Assembly: GCA_945873815.1 (NCBI GenBank)
Contig: CAMCEE010000015.1
Span: 1-52,879 of the forward strand
Source of the DNA: an uncultured Caryophanales bacterium
GTDB taxonomy: Bacteria > Bacillota_I > Bacilli_A > RFN20 > CAG-449
DNA: 52,879 bases
Direction of reading: 5' to 3'
Of the stretch, positions 4,326-14,922 are shown piece by piece. The first letter of the stretch is position 1. Each line of letters begins with the position of its first letter. The notes below the pieces were generated by a model. The model was not told the DNA's origin. It saw nothing but the letters and a program-made list of their open reading frames with translations, and did no database searches. A program made the position numbers and the translations under genes.

Positions 4326-6734
4326 TTATTTTATTATGATTTTATTTAAATGCCAGATATCATCAACGTATTGTTTGATTGTTCTATCTGAAGAGAAATA
4401 ACCTGCTTTTGCAATATTAACTAAGCAAGATCTAGCCCATGCGCTTCTATTTCCATACATTTTATCCATTTTTAAAGAAGCAGCAATATAACTATCTAAA
4501 TCTAATAATGATAAATATTCATCATTACGGTACATAATCTCATCAAAGATTGATCTGAATTCGTCAAAATTTTCACTCCATGTTCCATTAACCAATGAAT
4601 CCATGATTTGTTTGATATATGGTTTTTCATGATATAAGTTCCAAGGAGAATATGTTCCTGAACGCTTAATATCATTAACTTCAGGTGTCTTTAAGCCAAA
4701 GATAACATCGTTATCACTTCCAACTAATTGATCGATTTCTACATTAGCTCCATCAAGTGTACCTAATGTCAATGCACCATTAATCATGAATTTCATATTT
4801 GATGTACCAGAAGCTTCCTTTCCAGCAAGAGAAATTTGTTCAGAAATATCTGAAGCAGGTATAATGATTTCTGCAGATGATACTCCATAGTTTTCAATGA
4901 AAACTACTTTCATATATTTATTGATTTCAGGATCATTGTTAACCTTATTTGCAACGCTGTTGATAAGTTGAATAATCTTTTTAGCATGATAATAGCTAGG
5001 TGCAGCTTTTGCACCGAATATATAAGTATGTGGTGTGATTCTAAATGAAGGATCTTCTTTCATCTTAAAATAGAAATGCATGATTCTAAAGATATTCATG
5101 AGTTGTCTCTTATACGCATGTAATCTCTTAACTTGAGTATCGAAAATAGAGTCAATATCAACATCGATGTTGTTGTTCTTTTTAATATAATTTGCTAAAG
5201 CTACCTTATTATTTTTCTTGATTTCTAAGAAACGATCTTGAACTTTCTTATCATCGACATAATCCATAAATTTTGTTAAATCATCAGGATTTGAAATCCA
5301 ACTATCACCAATGCATGAAGTTACTAAATCAGCCAATTCAGGATCTGCATTTAAGAACCATCTACGATGTGTAATACCATTTGTCTTATTGTTGAATTTA
5401 TTTGGGTATAATTGATAGAATTCTTTAAATGTTTCATTACAGCAAATCTCTGTATGTAATTTTGCAACACCGTTTACACTATAAACTGTATGAATTCCTA
5501 AATTTGTCATATGAATCATACCATCTTTAATGATACGAACTTTTTGAATAAATTCATCATTATAGCCTTTTGCACGTAATTCTAAAATGAAACGACGATC
5601 AATTTCTTCGATAATCATATATACACGAGGTAATAGATTAGCTACATAAGAAACTGGCCATTTTTCTAATGCTTCAGCCATAATTGTATGGTTTGTATAT
5701 GCCATCATATGAGTAACTTGATGCCAAGCGTCATCCCATCCAAATCCATGTTCATCCATAAGTAATCTCATCAATTCAGGAATTGAAAGAATTGGGTGTG
5801 TATCATTTAATTGGAAAACATATTTTTCGCACATATTATTCAATGTACCATATTGTCTTTTATGTCCTCTAATCATTGATTGTAAACCAGCAGAAACAAG
5901 GAAATATTGTTGTCTTAAACGAAGGATACGGCCATGTTCTGTTGAATCATCAGGATATAAACCATGACAGATTTCTTTAATCGCGATTAAATAATCTTCA
6001 AAAGACATATTTGATGGTAGATTATCATCGCTTGCTTCAGCAGACCATAATCTTAATGTGTTAACGACATTATTCTTATATCCAATAATTGGTACATCAT
6101 AAGGAACCGCTTTAACGCACATTGCATTTACCGTTCTAGAACGAGTACATCCATCTACGTCTTGATATGTTTCTGCTTGACCATAGAATTTTACATCTAC
6201 TGCATGCTTTGGTTTTTTAATTTCCCAAACATATTGATTAGACAACCATTGATCAGGAACTTCTATTTGCTTTCCATCAACGATTTTTTGTTTAAAGAAT
6301 CCATATTCATAACGAATGCAGTTTCCATGTCCTGGATATCCTAAAGAAGCAATGGAATCTAAGAAACAAGCTGCTAAACGTCCAAGTCCACCATTTCCTA
6401 AACCTGCATCTGATTCTTGTTCTTCTAAATCGTGAATGTTAATTCCTAAATCTTGTAAGCCTTCTTTACAAATATTGTAAATACCTAAATTTTGTAAGTT
6501 ATTAACTAATAATCTTCCAATTAAGAATTCCATTGAGAAATAAACTAATTGTCTGTCTTCATTTTCTCTAACATAATCCTTACTTGCTTTCCAATCAATC
6601 GCAACATAATCACGAACCATACGTCCTAATACATCATATAATTCTGTAATATGGCATTTAGACATATCATTACCATATGTTCTAATGCAGCGTTTTTGAA
6701 ATTCTTTCTTAAAATTTTCTTTACTTGTAAACAT
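4326..6734 (-). CDS. glgP: glycogen phosphorylase
   Basis: Removes glucose-1-phosphate from the non-reducing ends of glycogen using PLP. The 802-residue length is typical of the family. The PLP-binding lysine is K648 in the motif GTSNMKFMINGALTLGTLDG; the glycine-rich GNGGLGRLAACFLDS and the GITHRRWF block are present. The start is supported by GGGAG 9 nt upstream. It lies 42 nt downstream of glgB on the same strand, so the two are likely one operon for glycogen branching and breakdown. Synthesis genes (glgA, glgC) are not in the window. Confidence 0.97.
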   Translation of the reverse strand: MFTSKENFKKEFQKRCIRTYGNDMSKCHITELYDVLGRMVRDYVAIDWKASKDYVRENEDRQLVYFSMEFLIGRLLVNNLQNLGIYNICKEGLQDLGINIHDLEEQESDAGLGNGGLGRLAACFLDSIASLGYPGHGNCIRYEYGFFKQKIVDGKQIEVPDQWLSNQYVWEIKKPKHAVDVKFYGQAETYQDVDGCTRSRTVNAMCVKAVPYDVPIIGYKNNVVNTLRLWSAEASDDNLPSNMSFEDYLIAIKEICHGLYPDDSTEHGRILRLRQQYFLVSAGLQSMIRGHKRQYGTLNNMCEKYVFQLNDTHPILSIPELMRLLMDEHGFGWDDAWHQVTHMMAYTNHTIMAEALEKWPVSYVANLLPRVYMIIEEIDRRFILELRAKGYNDEFIQKVRIIKDGMIHMTNLGIHTVYSVNGVAKLHTEICCNETFKEFYQLYPNKFNNKTNGITHRRWFLNADPELADLVTSCIGDSWISNPDDLTKFMDYVDDKKVQDRFLEIKKNNKVALANYIKKNNNIDVDIDSIFDTQVKRLHAYKRQLMNIFRIMHFYFKMKEDPSFRITPHTYIFGAKAAPSYYHAKKIIQLINSVANKVNNDPEINKYMKVVFIENYGVSSAEIIIPASDISEQISLAGKEASGTSNMKFMINGALTLGTLDGANVEIDQLVGSDNDVIFGLKTPEVNDIKRSGTYSPWNLYHEKPYIKQIMDSLVNGTWSENFDEFRSIFDEIMYRNDEYLSLLDLDSYIAASLKMDKMYGNRSAWARSCLVNIAKAGYFSSDRTIKQYVDDIWHLNKIIIK

Positions 6735-8931: not shown

Positions 8932-10131
8932 ATGGCAAAAGTTATAGCAGTTAATGCAGGTTCTAGTTCTCTCAAATTTAAATTATTTGAGATGCCAGAA
9001 GAGAAAGTAATATGTTCAGGTATCGCTGATCGTATTGGACACGAAGATGCAATCTTCGCAATTAAACCAGCAAATGGTGAAAAGAATGAGACAATTTGTA
9101 ACATTCCGGATCACACAATCGCTGTTGAAATGCTTTTAGAAGCATTAGTTGATGAAGGAATTGTCGCTTCATTAAATGAAATTAAAGGTATAGGTCATCG
9201 TATTGTTCAAGGTGGAGCATATTTCTCACATTCTGAGGAACTTAACGATAGAACAGAAAAATTGATTGAAGAATTAATTCCATTAGCTCCATTACATAAT
9301 GCTGCTCACCTTATTGGATTCAGAGCTTTCAAAAAGGCATTACCTAATGTTAGACAAATTGCAGTATTTGATACAGCATTCCATCAAACAATGGAACCAC
9401 AAGATTATTTATATGCTTGTCCAATGGAATACTATGAGAAATACAAAGTTAGAAGATATGGCGCACATGGTACATCGCATATGTACTTAGCTCAATGTGC
9501 TCAATCATATTTAAAAAAGGGACAAAATAAAATCATCACATGTCACATTGGTTCCGGTGCTTCATTATGTGCAATTAAAGATTGTAAATGTGTTGCAACA
9601 TCAATGGGTTTAACACCTTTAGCAGGTATTATGATGGGAACAAGAACTGGTGATATTGATCCATCAGTTATGCCTTATTTAGTTAAGCAAACAGGTAAAT
9701 CCGCAGAAGAAATATATCAAGAATTTAATAAGAAATCTGGTTTATTAGGTATTTCAGGAATTTCAAATGATACACGCGATGTTGAAAAAGCTGCTCTTGA
9801 AGGTGATGAAAGAGCAAATCTAGCAATAAAATTATATGCTCGTAGAGTTGCAGACTATATCGGTCAATATTATGTACGTTTAGGTGGATGTGATTTAATC
9901 GTATTCTCTGCTGGAGTCGGAGAGAATTCTCCTTATTTTAGAAAAGCAATGATCGATGAAGTTAAAGAAGCTCTTCATATTGAATTAAATGATGAAGCAA
10001 ATAATACGATGGTTAGAGGAAAAGAAGGCATCATTTCTTCAAAAGATTCAGCAATTCCTGTTGTTGTTATTCCAACTGATGAAGAAGTTATGATTGCTCG
10101 TGATATCGTTTCAATTCTTAAACTCAAATAG
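8932..10131 (+). CDS. ackA: acetate kinase
   Basis: Converts acetyl phosphate and ADP to acetate and ATP, the energy-yielding end of fermentation. The sequence shows the N-terminal NAGSSSLKFKLFE, the substrate-site FDTAFHQTM and RRYGAHGTSH blocks, the nucleotide-binding HIGSGASLCAI stretch and GVGENSP near the C terminus. The 399 residues match the family. TGGAGG is well placed for the ATG. No phosphotransacetylase gene is adjacent. The last 21 bases overlap the end of the convergent murC gene. Confidence 0.97.
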   Translation: MAKVIAVNAGSSSLKFKLFEMPEEKVICSGIADRIGHEDAIFAIKPANGEKNETICNIPDHTIAVEMLLEALVDEGIVASLNEIKGIGHRIVQGGAYFSHSEELNDRTEKLIEELIPLAPLHNAAHLIGFRAFKKALPNVRQIAVFDTAFHQTMEPQDYLYACPMEYYEKYKVRRYGAHGTSHMYLAQCAQSYLKKGQNKIITCHIGSGASLCAIKDCKCVATSMGLTPLAGIMMGTRTGDIDPSVMPYLVKQTGKSAEEIYQEFNKKSGLLGISGISNDTRDVEKAALEGDERANLAIKLYARRVADYIGQYYVRLGGCDLIVFSAGVGENSPYFRKAMIDEVKEALHIELNDEANNTMVRGKEGIISSKDSAIPVVVIPTDEEVMIARDIVSILKLK

Positions 10132-11406
10132 TTTTAAATAATTAGTTAAATACTCTCTTTCTTTATTCAGTATCTTACTTGACATTAAAGAAATTGAGTA
10201 TTTTTTTGTTGGTAAGATTATTTCTTTTAATTCACTAATATTTTCAATATACTTTATTTTTTCACTGCATAATATCATTGAATCTTCTTTTATATTATTT
10301 TCCATAATTGCAAGTGGTAAAACATAAGCTTTATCAAAAAGTGATAGAGCTTCTATTATCTCTTTTCTAAAATATGTAATACGAGATAATCTATCTCCTT
10401 TAAATATTGCAATTTTTATATGTTTTTGATGCTTTTCCTTGCATATTTCATAATTATTGATGATTTGTGATGGATGATGAGCGTAGTCAAGATTAATAAA
10501 GTTTCCTTCTATTTCTTCTTCATTAAATCTTTGAACCGATGGAACGAATTTGTTCATATTAATCTGAACATCATTAAGAGGGATATTATGTTCATTCATA
10601 AATGCGATAGCCGAAACGAAGAGTTCAACAAAATGGTCTCCTAAATTCATTATAATAAATTCGCCTATTTTCACCGTTTCGTGCCATACGTCAATTGTAA
10701 TTGAATTCATTTTTCTTTCTTTGATTGTAGCATAATAATCTGCTTCATTATTCAATCCAAATGTAACTATATTTTGATGTTTTATCTTATTTCTATATTG
10801 ATGATTGATATACACTTTATTTGCATTTTTAATGAAATGATTAAAACTTGATATATACTCTATTTCACTCTTAAAATAATCGACATGATCATATTCAATG
10901 TTTGTAATAAGTACTTCCTTTGGATTATAAGTCCAAAAATGATTCTTATATTCACATGATTCTAAAAAGAAGAACTGATCATATTCTTTTTTTCTTCCTT
11001 TTCCATCTCCAGAAAGATATGAAGTATTTGGAACTATCTCTTTTAAAATATTAACAAGCGTAGTTTTTCCATGAGATCCACAGATAGATACTAATTTATT
11101 ATCATCAATATAGAAATCTAAAAATTCATTGTACTCAAACCACATCATGTGATTATCATCCAACTCTTTTAATAAATCTTTATTCATAAAGGAATGACCA
11201 ATAATAACTACATCACTTTTTAAATATTCTTTACTATTTTCTCCATCAATCACTACTCCCCTTTTTCTTAGATTAGAACTATAAAGATCATCAAACTCCT
11301 TATCTAATCCTCTAACATTATATTCATCATCAAGGAGTAAATGAGCAAGACCAGCCATACCAGAGCCTCTAATTCCAATTAAATAAAATCTCAAAAAAAT
11401 CACCAC
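10111..11406 (-). CDS. murC: UDP-N-acetylmuramate--L-alanine ligase
   Basis: A Mur ligase that adds the first peptide residue to UDP-MurNAc in peptidoglycan synthesis. N-terminal dinucleotide-like fold (IGIRGSGMAGLAHLL), ATP loop GSHGKTT, central block ITNIEYDHVDYF, and DYAHHPSQI in the C-terminal domain. These are MurC rather than MurD/E/F signatures, and 431 residues fits. The start is a GTG. It aligns with an ATG in a duplicated copy of this 5' end (13360-13449), which supports it; a TTG four codons later with GGTGA upstream is an alternative. A terminator hairpin overlaps the 5' end. Expression may rely on read-through from the AbiE pair. Confidence 0.85.
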   Translation of the reverse strand: MVIFLRFYLIGIRGSGMAGLAHLLLDDEYNVRGLDKEFDDLYSSNLRKRGVVIDGENSKEYLKSDVVIIGHSFMNKDLLKELDDNHMMWFEYNEFLDFYIDDNKLVSICGSHGKTTLVNILKEIVPNTSYLSGDGKGRKKEYDQFFFLESCEYKNHFWTYNPKEVLITNIEYDHVDYFKSEIEYISSFNHFIKNANKVYINHQYRNKIKHQNIVTFGLNNEADYYATIKERKMNSITIDVWHETVKIGEFIIMNLGDHFVELFVSAIAFMNEHNIPLNDVQINMNKFVPSVQRFNEEEIEGNFINLDYAHHPSQIINNYEICKEKHQKHIKIAIFKGDRLSRITYFRKEIIEALSLFDKAYVLPLAIMENNIKEDSMILCSEKIKYIENISELKEIILPTKKYSISLMSSKILNKEREYLTNYLKLFEFKN

Positions 11407-11418
11407 TTAATTATATGC
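11357..11418 (-). repeat. 62-bp direct repeat, murC-proximal copy
   Basis: Covers the first ~17 codons of murC plus 12 bp upstream. It matches 13400-13461 at 56 of 62 positions in the same orientation. Similarity stops sharply on both sides, so the two copies bracket the 1.98-kb segment that carries the AbiE pair. Confidence 0.9.
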
Positions 11419-11428
11419 AAGTGGTGAT
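11393..11428 (-). terminator. intrinsic terminator overlapping the murC start
   Basis: On the minus strand, a perfect 10-bp stem (ATCACCACTT / AAGTGGTGAT, 10-nt loop) is followed by seven T residues. The distal arm and T tract contain the murC GTG start. The hairpin arises where the AbiE segment meets the murC repeat copy and is absent from the other copy. Confidence 0.7.
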
Positions 11429-11570
11429 GTTTATATTTGAAATTAAGTTTATTAATTTATCTAAATCTTTAATATTTTTTAATATCATGATTAGTTCTAA
11501 CAACAATTACTTTAGATGTATAATTGTTTCCATTAAAACCTGTGAACAAAATTTTATATATTTTATTCAT
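11411..11570 (-). pseudogene. small frameshifted ORF after abiEii
   Basis: An ATG at 11570 overlaps the end of the AbiEii gene (AAAGATGAATAA) and opens a 33-codon frame (MNKIYKILFTGFNGNN...) ending at 11469. Removing one A from an A6 run near 11475-11480 would extend it to 52 codons (ending ...NINITTCI) with a stop at 11411. I do not recognise the product. It is either the remnant of a third gene in the inserted segment or a small ORF with homopolymer frameshifting; chance is possible. Confidence 0.3.
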
Positions 11571-12537
11571 CTTTCTTATTTTGTAAAGATTGTTTCCATT
11601 TAATCATTGGATGATTTTTCACATTATTATCGACTAAATCACTTCCAAAAAGATTAATAGAAGAAATATTAGGGAAACTTTTTATAAAAGTCAATTCACT
11701 ATCAGTAATACTATATATAATTGTGTCTAAGAGAATATTAATATTATCCACTGCATTAGTTATATCAAACTTTTCATTTAATTTTAGTGTTGATGTTAAA
11801 TATTGAGGAACTGGTTTATCTATAAAAGCACACATTCTTTTTTTACACTCATTAAATAATGTTTTAATATCTACATTATCTTCAGAAGATAACAGGAAAT
11901 AGAAAATTACACTCTTTTTGAATACAATAAATTCTTCATCTAGTATAGTATTGTTTTTAATCATATTATAAACATCATAAATATCTCTAATAGTTGTTCT
12001 GTATATTAAAGCACAAGTTTTTGATGCAAATAAATCAATTTTATTTAATGATAAAACTTCTATATGATCTTTCGAAGGTAAAGTAATTGTTCTTTTCTTA
12101 CAATCAAACAAATGAATTCTATTCATATAATTTATTTCAACTTTTATCATATCTATAGCATTAAACATATTTGAATAATTAAAAACAAAAGAATCTAAAG
12201 CATGAGTCTTCTTTGTTTTATCACTACGATATTGCATTTTAGATTCTTGCATATAGTTTAATATTTTTGTTTCAATTATTCTTCTATCTATTATCATTTG
12301 TTCTTTATCAATAGAACCAACATAATCCAAGTCAATATCAACACTTAATCTTAAATAATCATAAAATGTTAAATTAATTGCAGTACCGCCTTTTAATACC
12401 AATTTATCTTTTAAATATATATCTGTATTGATAAATTCTAAAACATCAATTAATCTTAGTACTCTCTCAAGAGTTTGCTTTTGAACATTTAATTCTTGTG
12501 CCAGTATGATGATTTCTTTTTTTGTATATGAAAACAT
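11563..12537 (-). CDS. AbiEii/AbiGii-family nucleotidyltransferase toxin
   Basis: Toxin half of a type IV (AbiE) toxin-antitoxin/abortive-infection pair; the family carries a DNA polymerase beta-type nucleotidyltransferase fold, and characterised relatives modify tRNA or bind GTP. Visible motifs: LKGGTAINL (GG at residues 50-51), then SVDIDLD with the D67/D69 metal pair, and downstream KIDLFASKTCALIYRTTIRDIYD, the conserved Lys and RDxYD region. 324 residues is normal for the family. Start and stop overlap the antitoxin gene as TAATG, so translation is coupled. Ends in a Lys-rich tail. It lies between duplicated murC ends. Confidence 0.85.
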   Translation of the reverse strand: MFSYTKKEIIILAQELNVQKQTLERVLRLIDVLEFINTDIYLKDKLVLKGGTAINLTFYDYLRLSVDIDLDYVGSIDKEQMIIDRRIIETKILNYMQESKMQYRSDKTKKTHALDSFVFNYSNMFNAIDMIKVEINYMNRIHLFDCKKRTITLPSKDHIEVLSLNKIDLFASKTCALIYRTTIRDIYDVYNMIKNNTILDEEFIVFKKSVIFYFLLSSEDNVDIKTLFNECKKRMCAFIDKPVPQYLTSTLKLNEKFDITNAVDNINILLDTIIYSITDSELTFIKSFPNISSINLFGSDLVDNNVKNHPMIKWKQSLQNKKDE

Positions 12538-13265
12538 TAAAATACCTCCATATCCTTATAAACATACAAACGCCATTTTGCATTAAATATTAATACATCT
12601 TTCGCTTTTAAATTATAGTATCCAACTGTATTTCCACCTCTTTTATTGCATTCACTAAAAAATTCATCTTTTATATTAAGTGTTTCTTTAAATTTTTCTA
12701 GAACATAACCTACTTTTTTATATAATAATTTGTTATTTAAACTTTCTAAGTATTTCATTATTTTTATTTCATCAATTATATTAATATTATTTATGCACTC
12801 CAATAGTTCATAATATTCAAAATTAGCACTATCTTTAATACAATCCACAATAGCTCTTTCAATGCTACTAATCATTATGCCTGTTAATTTATTCACTTGA
12901 ATTAAATTATCACTTTTGTGATATTTATATAAAACATTATCAAAAACAAAATCACGTTTAAATGTATTTGTTGTGACATCTACAATATTATAAACTTGAT
13001 TATTTAATCCATAAAATTCGAAAACACTATGATGTGAAATAAAATCATTATCTCCATTCCCACATGCGATTTCATATTTATTTGCAGCAGGCGTATCATT
13101 AACTAGATCATTAATAACGAAATAATCTTTTTTTATTTTTGTTATATAACCTTTATCTATATATGATTTTAAAACATAATTAGCATTATGAATGTTTCCA
13201 CATACGCTTATTACATCTTTTCTATTAAACATTTTCAAACTTGATAATTCTTTTAAATACTTCAT
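12537..13265 (-). CDS. AbiEi-family antitoxin/transcriptional regulator
   Basis: The first gene of the pair; AbiEi antitoxins repress their own operon through an N-terminal winged helix. Here residues ~1-65 (MKYLKELSSLKMFNRKDVIS... to KIKKDYFVIND) look like that winged helix, followed by the larger AbiEi C-terminal region (DFISHHSVFEFYGL, SSIERAIVDCIK). I start at the ATG at 13265, preceded by TTGAGGT. The longer frame back to 13313 would begin with TTG inside the -35 box of the promoter, which makes it unlikely. Length from this start is 242 residues. Confidence 0.8.
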   Translation of the reverse strand: MKYLKELSSLKMFNRKDVISVCGNIHNANYVLKSYIDKGYITKIKKDYFVINDLVNDTPAANKYEIACGNGDNDFISHHSVFEFYGLNNQVYNIVDVTTNTFKRDFVFDNVLYKYHKSDNLIQVNKLTGIMISSIERAIVDCIKDSANFEYYELLECINNINIIDEIKIMKYLESLNNKLLYKKVGYVLEKFKETLNIKDEFFSECNKRGGNTVGYYNLKAKDVLIFNAKWRLYVYKDMEVF

Positions 13266-13283
13266 AAGTATAACCTCAATATT

Positions 13284-13313
13284 ATTATAATTCTTTTTTG
13301 AAAAATTAATCAA
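13284..13313 (-). promoter_or_regulatory. abiE operon promoter
   Basis: TTGATT, an 18-bp spacer and TATAAT on the minus strand, about 20 nt before the AbiEi start. Confidence 0.7.
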
Positions 13314-13329
13314 CTAAATTGTTTAATTT
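13303..13329. promoter_or_regulatory. 27-bp palindrome, candidate AbiEi operator
   Basis: AAATTAA-n-CAA-5 nt-TTG-n-TTAATTT: 10 of 11 paired positions are symmetric around a 5-bp centre. It overlaps the -35 box of the abiE promoter. AbiEi of Streptococcus agalactiae represses its operon by binding inverted repeats at the promoter, so this is the expected place for an operator. Confidence 0.5.
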
Positions 13330-13359
13330 TTTTGCTTGTTATTTAGTTTTATTTGTATA

Positions 13360-13449
13360 TTATGTTAATTTTTTTAAACTTTTTTCCGGATAAAATGCAA
13401 TACCAGAGCCTCGAATTCCAATTAAATAAAATCTTAAAGAAATCACCAT
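13360..13449 (-). pseudogene. duplicated murC 5' fragment
   Basis: A 29-codon frame reading MVISLRFYLIGIRGSG before it leaves the homology and stops. The first 18 codons match the start of murC (10111-11406) almost exactly, with an ATG where murC now has GTG. It is separated from the murC body by the AbiE segment, so it appears to be the old chromosomal start left behind, or one arm of a duplication. Confidence 0.75.
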
Positions 13450-13461
13450 TAAAATATATGC
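13400..13461 (-). repeat. 62-bp direct repeat, eno-proximal copy
   Basis: Second copy of 11357-11418, with six mismatches. It sits in the spacer between the AbiE promoter region and the divergent enolase gene. Confidence 0.9.
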
Positions 13462-13623: not shown

Positions 13624-14922
13624 ATGACAATAGAAAAAATATACGCACGTGAGGTAATTGATTCAAGAGGAAATCCAACAATTGAAGTAGAAGTAACGCT
13701 TAAGGATGGAACCATAGGGAAAGCAATTGTTCCAAGTGGAGCATCAACAGGCAAAAATGAAGCTTTAGAACTAAGAGATAACGATAAAAATAGATATTTA
13801 GGAAAAGGAGTTCTTAAAGCAGTATATAACGTCAATAATATAATAGGTCCTGCCATCAGAGGAATGAATGTAGAAAACCAATTGGAAATTGATAATATGA
13901 TTATCGATTTAGATGGGACTTCTTTTAAAAAAAAATTAGGTGCAAATTCAACATTAGGAGTATCTCTTGCAGTTGCTCATGCTGCAGCAAATTATTTAAA
14001 AATGCCATTATATCGGTATTTAGGAGGAATAAACGCTCATATTCTTCCTTCACCATTAATGAACGTTATAAATGGAGGAGTTCATGCAGATTCATCGATT
14101 GATTTCCAAGAATACTTTATTATCCCTGTTGGATTTAATACATTTAAAGAAGCATTAAGAGGTGGTATTGAAACATTTCATCATCTAAAAATGATTCTAA
14201 AAGAAAAAGGGTATTCTACTAGTGTAGGAGATGAAGGTGGGTTTGCTCCAAGGTGTAGAAATGGTAATGAAGAGCCTTTAGAATTGATTATTGAAGCAAT
14301 AAAAAAAGCCGGTTATACGCCTGGAAAACACATATTTCTAGGTATCGATGTCGCCTCTAGTGAATTTTATAATGGTGATGGTACATACTCATTAAATAAA
14401 TCAAAACAAGGTGTAAAAACATCTTCTCAAATGATAGATTGGTATAAAGAAATGTGTAATAAATACCCTATAATAACTATAGAAGATGGAATAGGAGAAT
14501 CGGACTGGGAAGGTTGGAAGGAATTAACAAAAGAATTAGGCAATAAAATACAGTTAGTTGGAGATGATCTATTCGTAACAAACAAAGAATTCCTTAAAAA
14601 AGGAATAATGAAAGGAATTGCCAATTCCATATTAATTAAATATAATCAAATCGGAACTTTAAGTGAAACCTTAGAGACGATATCACTAGCAAAAACAAAT
14701 GGATATACTTGTATTATTTCACATCGATCAGGAGAAACTGAAGATACTACAATTGCTGATCTTTCTCTTGCAGTCAATTCATCTCAAATCAAAACCGGTT
14801 CTGCCTCAAGAACAGATAGAATTGCAAAATACAATCGCCTATTAAGAATCGAAGAGGAATTAGGTAAAAATGCTTTATTTATTGGTATTAGAGCGTTTAA
14901 AAAATACGAATTTGAAGAGTAA
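13624..14922 (+). CDS. eno: enolase
   Basis: Interconverts 2-phosphoglycerate and phosphoenolpyruvate in glycolysis. Motifs: N-terminal [27 protein letters not shown], the metal ligand stretch [24 protein letters not shown], catalytic [13 protein letters not shown], and the signature [15 protein letters not shown]. Full family length (432). GAAAGGA precedes the ATG. It may lie divergent to the original murC promoter. The other glycolytic mutase in the window, gpmI, is unlinked. Confidence 0.97.

Follow-up and report, generated by a model that had tools for sequence, protein, structure and literature searches.

The AbiE locus upstream of murC

The 52,879-nucleotide contig CAMCEE010000015.1 from an uncultured Caryophanales bacterium (hereafter the window), which is contig C15 of a 39-contig, 1.80-Mb genome, carries an abiEi-abiEii gene pair located between murC and the enolase gene eno. 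The pair is bracketed by two direct repeats of the murC 5' end (11357-11418 and 13400-13461), which are identical at 56 of 62 bases. The next-best match of the 62-mer within the window reaches 35/62, while a whole-genome search with the repeat returned two places only, the second with an E-value of 2.5e-18. A first-pass annotation, made from the sequence alone, had described these repeats, one joined to the murC body and the other forming a stub of ~29 codons beside eno, and this description was confirmed.

The comparison set included congeners of the window genome (among them G002 and G006), the contig C81 (G007:C81, locus L060; JALFBO010000072.1) from a second metagenome-assembled genome (MAG), Erysipelotrichaceae bacterium SUG531, which the classification tool places in the window's genus, the 410-kb contig SVBG01000001.1 of SIG222 (locus L112), and G290, a relative of SIG222. 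Both named comparison assemblies, SUG531 and SIG222, are metagenome-assembled. The features of the locus are as follows.

10111..11406, minus strand: murC, UDP-N-acetylmuramate--L-alanine ligase-like, the presumed rebuilt target gene, 431 aa (open reading frame (ORF) list; TIGR01082 match; start by alignment)
11357..11418, minus strand: murC-proximal 62-bp repeat, putative replacement leader and 5' codons, continuous with the murC body (repeat comparison, alignment)
11399..11428, minus strand: palindromic murC leader with 10-bp arms, TATAAT in the loop and GGTGAT in the 3' arm (sequence, folding)
11429..11531, minus strand: tail separating the AbiE block from the murC leader, matching G006 DNA upstream of murC and not C81
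11532..13411, minus strand: block common to the window and C81, 96.1% identical over 1868 bp, reaching into the remnant of murC codons 10-14 (alignment)
11563..12537, minus strand: abiEii, DUF1814 nucleotidyltransferase toxin, 324 aa (ORF, PF08843, PADLOC, motifs)
12537..13313, minus strand: abiEi, antitoxin, 258 aa from a TTG; the ATG at 13265 is the more likely start (ORF, PADLOC)
13266..13396, minus strand: presumed promoter/operator of abiEi, situated upstream of the gene and conserved in C81 (C81 comparison)
13395..13411, minus strand: right arm, a putative remnant of murC codons ~10-14 carried by the cassette, of the same kind in the window and C81 despite their differing murC genes
13400..13461, minus strand: eno-side 62-bp repeat, putative native 5' end of murC, now a stub (repeat comparison; leader like that of the G002 empty site)
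13624..14922, plus strand: eno (enolase), flanking gene (ORF list, profile match)

The AbiE assignment is based on PADLOC matches for both abiEii (1e-78) and abiEi (8e-63), with abiEii also matching PF08843. The AbiEii catalytic positions G50 G51, R63, D67, D69, K173 and R180 are kept across five homologues, the motifs being defined as hG[G/S]..DhD plus the lysine of motif III (PMC3985639). The two genes lie on the same strand in the order abiEi then abiEii, with ends meeting at 12537, which fits the AbiE layout, and the segment is predicted to represent an intact AbiE type IV toxin-antitoxin pair. As in the characterized type IV systems (Dy et al. 2014, PMC3985639), the operon is overlapping and the AbiEii catalytic motifs are retained; only the location differs.

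The best NCBIfam model for the product of murC is TIGR01082 (E-value 5e-52), with a score under that model's curated cut-off, and the protein is therefore regarded as a divergent MurC. The ATG of murC in relatives aligns with the TTG at 11397 and not with the GTG at 11406; the TTG is the likely start codon, while the GTG probably belongs to a GGTGAT ribosome-binding stretch. With the start at 11397, the repeat consists of ~14 codons plus ~21 bp of leader, which refines the composition given in the first-pass annotation (~17 codons plus 12 bp upstream). The eno-side copy is an open frame of ~29 codons adjoining eno, and it reads TTA at the position of the conserved murC start as aligned with relatives, the start codon thus having been lost. 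Its leader, TTTTAATGGTGATT, resembles that of G002, while the murC-proximal leader and adjoining DNA match G006 with 93% identity over 105 bp.

The leader palindrome at 11399-11428 has perfect 10-bp arms and a predicted fold of -14.2 kcal/mol (z -4.95). The palindrome, TTGCATATAATnnAGTGGTGATT, was considered as an element-specific site and rejected, being the native murC leader that is present at uninterrupted murC genes too. Of note, a palindromic, terminator-like murC leader also occurs in G003, G006, G007, G279, G287 and G290, with GGTGAT in the 3' arm and a TATAAT-like loop; such a leader may both terminate the upstream gene and control the translation of murC.

An uninterrupted eno-murC junction

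In G002, eno and murC are divergent and 155 bp apart. The 5' end of murC is present once, and the downstream synteny with ackA-glgB is conserved. Comparison with this uninterrupted eno-murC junction shows that the AbiE segment of the window is an insertion at murC. This supports the suggestion in the first-pass annotation that a small module had entered murC at its start and rebuilt the gene, as does the presence of the same module with a stub in two other lineages, described below.

The murC gene of G006 adjoins clpB, and not ackA/eno. Between clpB and murC of this genome (L052:9987-10250) lies a decayed IS1182-like transposase fragment with a hairpin resembling an insertion sequence end. An IS1182 transposon with a long target duplication was considered for the window and appears unlikely: the window tail shares only the unclassified, AT-rich distal part of the G006 IS1182 region, and the AbiE block ends elsewhere. 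The tail was also examined as a possible integrase remnant, and a 43-bp DNA match to an integrase gene of G003 vanished at the protein level.

Two further insertions at murC

C81 carries the same AbiE pair (95-96% aa identity) beside its murC, together with its own murC 5' stub, and its neighbouring genes differ from those of the window. The cassettes of the window and C81 share 96.1% DNA identity over 1868 bp, while the C81 murC is 29% identical to that of the window. For the empty state of the C81 site, the nearest homologue of its CDF transporter gene, in G001, was found to have no murC nearby.

In SIG222, a more distant AbiE pair (73-75% aa identity) lies directly upstream of a third murC, and a stub consisting of the leader and 13 codons, followed by a break, is found at 4960-5037 on the far side of AbiE. 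The corresponding empty site is provided by G290, in which gltS and murC are separated by 60 bp. The order abiEi-abiEii-murC is identical in the window, C81 and SIG222. In the murC tree, the three genes fall in three separate clades, whose other surveyed members lack the module. Since the three genes belong to three clades, the insertions are independent, implying at least three such events in three gut-bacterial lineages.

These data also bear on vertical inheritance, or on a local duplication enclosing AbiE by chance, the latter having been offered as an alternative in the first-pass annotation. While the 90% identity of the repeats could reflect an old tandem duplication, neither AbiE nor a stub is present in the closest relatives of any of the three murC genes, and the 95% identity between the AbiE pairs of the window and C81 is incongruent with the 29% of their murC genes. 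The same cassette at three independent murC loci, and the foreign 5' end in SIG222 (see below), further disfavour a duplication, and we consider this explanation hardly credible.

To place these loci in context, the available murC starts were surveyed, 42 of them full-length. An upstream murC stub was present in three of the 42, i.e., those of the window, C81 and SIG222 only. At 37 other murC loci, ordinary neighbours were found at 38-794 bp, with few defence-model matches, each to single genes; these ordinary neighbours argue against the region upstream of murC as a general toxin-antitoxin hotspot. In the viral contigs searched, neither a relative of AbiE nor the murC 5' pattern was found. 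Separately, G288 was seen to possess two murC homologues (L183 on C4 and L184 on C3), one of which is incomplete, lying at a contig edge, and shares 64% identity with the murC of SIG222.

The point of crossover within murC

On the stub side, the window and C81 remain similar up to murC codon ~10, a stretch that takes in 16-17 bp derived from murC; beyond this point the similarity falls to about half, since the native stubs are not alike. In SIG222, the stub is identical to G290 over the leader TGCATATAATGTAGTGGTGATTTTTTTT and on through codon 8 (26 bp of coding DNA), after which the two diverge. Conversely, the full-length SIG222 murC differs from that of G290 at six of its first 39 bases vs 43 of the next 1230 (Fisher p = 0.003), and its first ~11 codons resemble the start of the C81 murC. 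Because the stub matches G290 and the differences cluster in the 5' end of the full-length gene, the SIG222 crossover is placed at coding nucleotides ~20-33. The SIG222 stub is thus the native start, and the full-length murC has a foreign start on a native body. All three murC breaks lie at codons 9-11, within the motif GI(K/R)GSGM.

A long target duplication, as described for restriction-modification (RM) units, was weighed against these breakpoints. When RM units insert, a target stretch on the scale of 100 bp is duplicated (Nobusato 2000 and Furuta 2010, as reviewed in PMC3874152; PMC1643837). In this scenario, AbiE would have inserted at murC codon ~13 and repair would have duplicated a ~62-bp target, both copies being native. 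In its favour, the cargo is an addiction-type pair without a mobility gene and is flanked by a direct target repeat of ~60 bp (~60-100 bp in the RM comparison), and the rare Arg codons common to both window copies would be accounted for. However, RM insertions use varied targets and yield plain duplicates, whereas AbiE has used one point three times; in SIG222 the functional copy is foreign and the stub native; and the codon 10-14 arm is common to the window and C81 though their murC sequences differ. This explanation is thus regarded as quite improbable.

The anatomy of the locus matches that of the dusA islands, which target the 5' end of a conserved gene, supply a new end for dusA and have the former one at the far side, with semi-conserved direct flanking repeats (Farrugia et al. 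2015, PMC4482086). Likewise, the AbiE segment is bracketed by direct repeats of the target 5' end, and the element appears to supply a new 5' end while the native one remains at the far side, as seen from SIG222 vs G290. In dusA islands, a tyrosine integrase represents the only universal gene, and the islands excise as circles (PMC4482086); unlike these, the AbiE segment is 2 kb long, carries no integrase and has murC as its target. No description of a murC 5' integration site was found in the literature searched, which held few subscription papers.

Tandem cargo in SIG222

Beyond the SIG222 stub, between gltS and the stub (L112:2167-4936), lie an XRE-DUF3990 gene, an ORF of 270 aa with a weak pyrophosphatase-like match, and a Fic gene, which probably represent toxin-antitoxin or defence cargo. 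Cargo other than AbiE joined to the murC repeat, a possibility raised by the first-pass annotation, is therefore present, XRE-DUF3990 and Fic preceding a murC 5' copy. Just after gltS (L112:2055-2110), there is a decayed leader-like palindrome with a T-run, unmatched in 1000 mononucleotide shuffles (0/1000), which lies about where G290 has its murC leader. It is possibly an older second murC stub, or else a gltS terminator of similar shape. The array gltS - decayed leader - (XRE-DUF3990, ORF, Fic) - stub - (AbiE) - murC probably reflects two successive insertions. Furthermore, C81 contains between AbiE and murC a fragment like the N-terminus of the SIG222 XRE-DUF3990 protein (13/24 identical, pairwise E-value 5e-08).

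These observations raise the alternative that the loci are remnants of a larger, integrase-bearing island at murC, decayed to att-like repeats and AbiE in the manner of a cis-mobilizable element (CIME; PMC5704250). The flanking repeats, the tandem cargo of SIG222 and the cargo remnants of C81 fit accretion followed by decay, and the loci share with CIMEs a cargo between att-like repeats, without integrase or transfer genes, and possible tandem accretion, the att role being presumed. Against this, a compact block of ~1.87 kb recurs at 96% identity in two lineages, which argues for movement of the small form as such, and no remnant of an integrase was found beside any of the three AbiE insertions (window, C81, SIG222). 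The island remnant is an unlikely explanation. Unlike for a CIME, no partner integrative and conjugative or integrative and mobilizable element with an integrase for the murC site was found in seven genomes searched with PF00589 (serine integrases were not searched). A broader proposal, that an integrase-less cassette family (AbiE, probably also XRE-DUF3990/Fic) shares the murC 5' attachment site, rebuilds the gene, stacks in tandem and crosses bacterial orders via a recombinase acting in trans, is tentative and more likely wrong than right.

A proposed mobile AbiE cassette that rebuilds murC

We favour, with a probability of roughly 0.7, a small mobile AbiE cassette with a single integration point in the murC 5' end, which rebuilds the gene. 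One arm of the cassette would bear a murC leader and 5' codons of its own and the other arm a fragment of murC codons 10-14, and the target in murC would be codons 9-11 of the conserved GI(K/R)GSGM motif. Crossover with the resident murC would strand its native 5' end upstream, where it forms a dead stub, and join the native body to the replacement leader and start, thereby keeping the essential gene intact. The process may pass through a circle or an equivalent intermediate, and strand exchange would be performed by an enzyme that is not cassette-encoded or by recombination at short conserved homology. As a predicted addiction/abortive-infection module, AbiE presumably retains the insertion.

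As to the enzyme, the window genome yielded two PF00589 matches only, in frames of 305 and 308 aa on other contigs, and these tyrosine recombinases are probably XerC/XerD-like. In dif/pdif modules (XerC/XerD, PMC6449649), toxin-antitoxin cargo is moved by a recombinase acting in trans, as may be the case for AbiE. Unlike those modules, the murC repeat contains no dif-like 28-bp XerC/XerD site: it shows 11-12 mismatches in 28 positions to a Bacillus-type dif, equal to background, and a Xer/dif site is not supported.

Homology or microhomology recombination without a dedicated recombinase differs from the favoured reading in the enzyme only. Here, donor DNA containing AbiE and a murC 5' end would cross at ATTAAAGGNNCNGGNATG, by a Campbell-type single crossover or by fragment uptake. 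The lack of a cassette-encoded recombinase, a breakpoint in the most conserved murC 5' codons, the variable tails, as if donor DNA had been joined at different places, and window repeat copies that look like congener DNA are all in keeping with this route. On the other hand, the murC genes of C81 and the window share little DNA identity, and RecA normally uses identity far above theirs; moreover, the three independent breaks fall within a few bp, and other murC loci have ordinary neighbours. We regard this route as a serious contender at somewhat less than even odds.

Several points weigh against the mobile cassette itself. The sample comprises three cases only, and one of these is doubtful in its binning: the C81 murC groups with the order of SIG222, while the C81 CDF transporter gene is nearest to the window's genus, reflecting either horizontal murC replacement or a binning error. 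The tail that follows abiEii, up to the murC leader, is different in the window, C81 and SIG222, so the cassette would not be one fixed unit on the abiEii side. Both window repeat copies have Arg codons absent from other murC starts, and the window's replacement 5' end would come either from a close relative or from a true duplication. There is no integrase ORF in the segment between the repeats, as the first-pass annotation had stated, the seven genomes searched with PF00589 showed no murC-linked tyrosine integrase, and no circular form was seen.

How toxin-antitoxin or abortive-infection pairs move without an integrase or transposase of their own is a long-standing question. In the present loci, the edge on the stub side, the uninterrupted site and the exchange of the 5' end are resolved sharply enough for site-specific integration in trans to be tested against short-homology recombination, and a rebuilt murC 5' end would explain how a cassette can enter an essential cell-wall gene without killing its host.

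Other integrase loci in the genus

Two loci of the window's genus, L226 (G003:C56) and L227 (G002:C31), encode tyrosine integrases of ~360-380 aa with a neighbour in common, and inspection by eye of the G003 locus identified Rep-like and Zot-like genes. This suggests that integrated filamentous (inovirus-like) phages occur in the genus.

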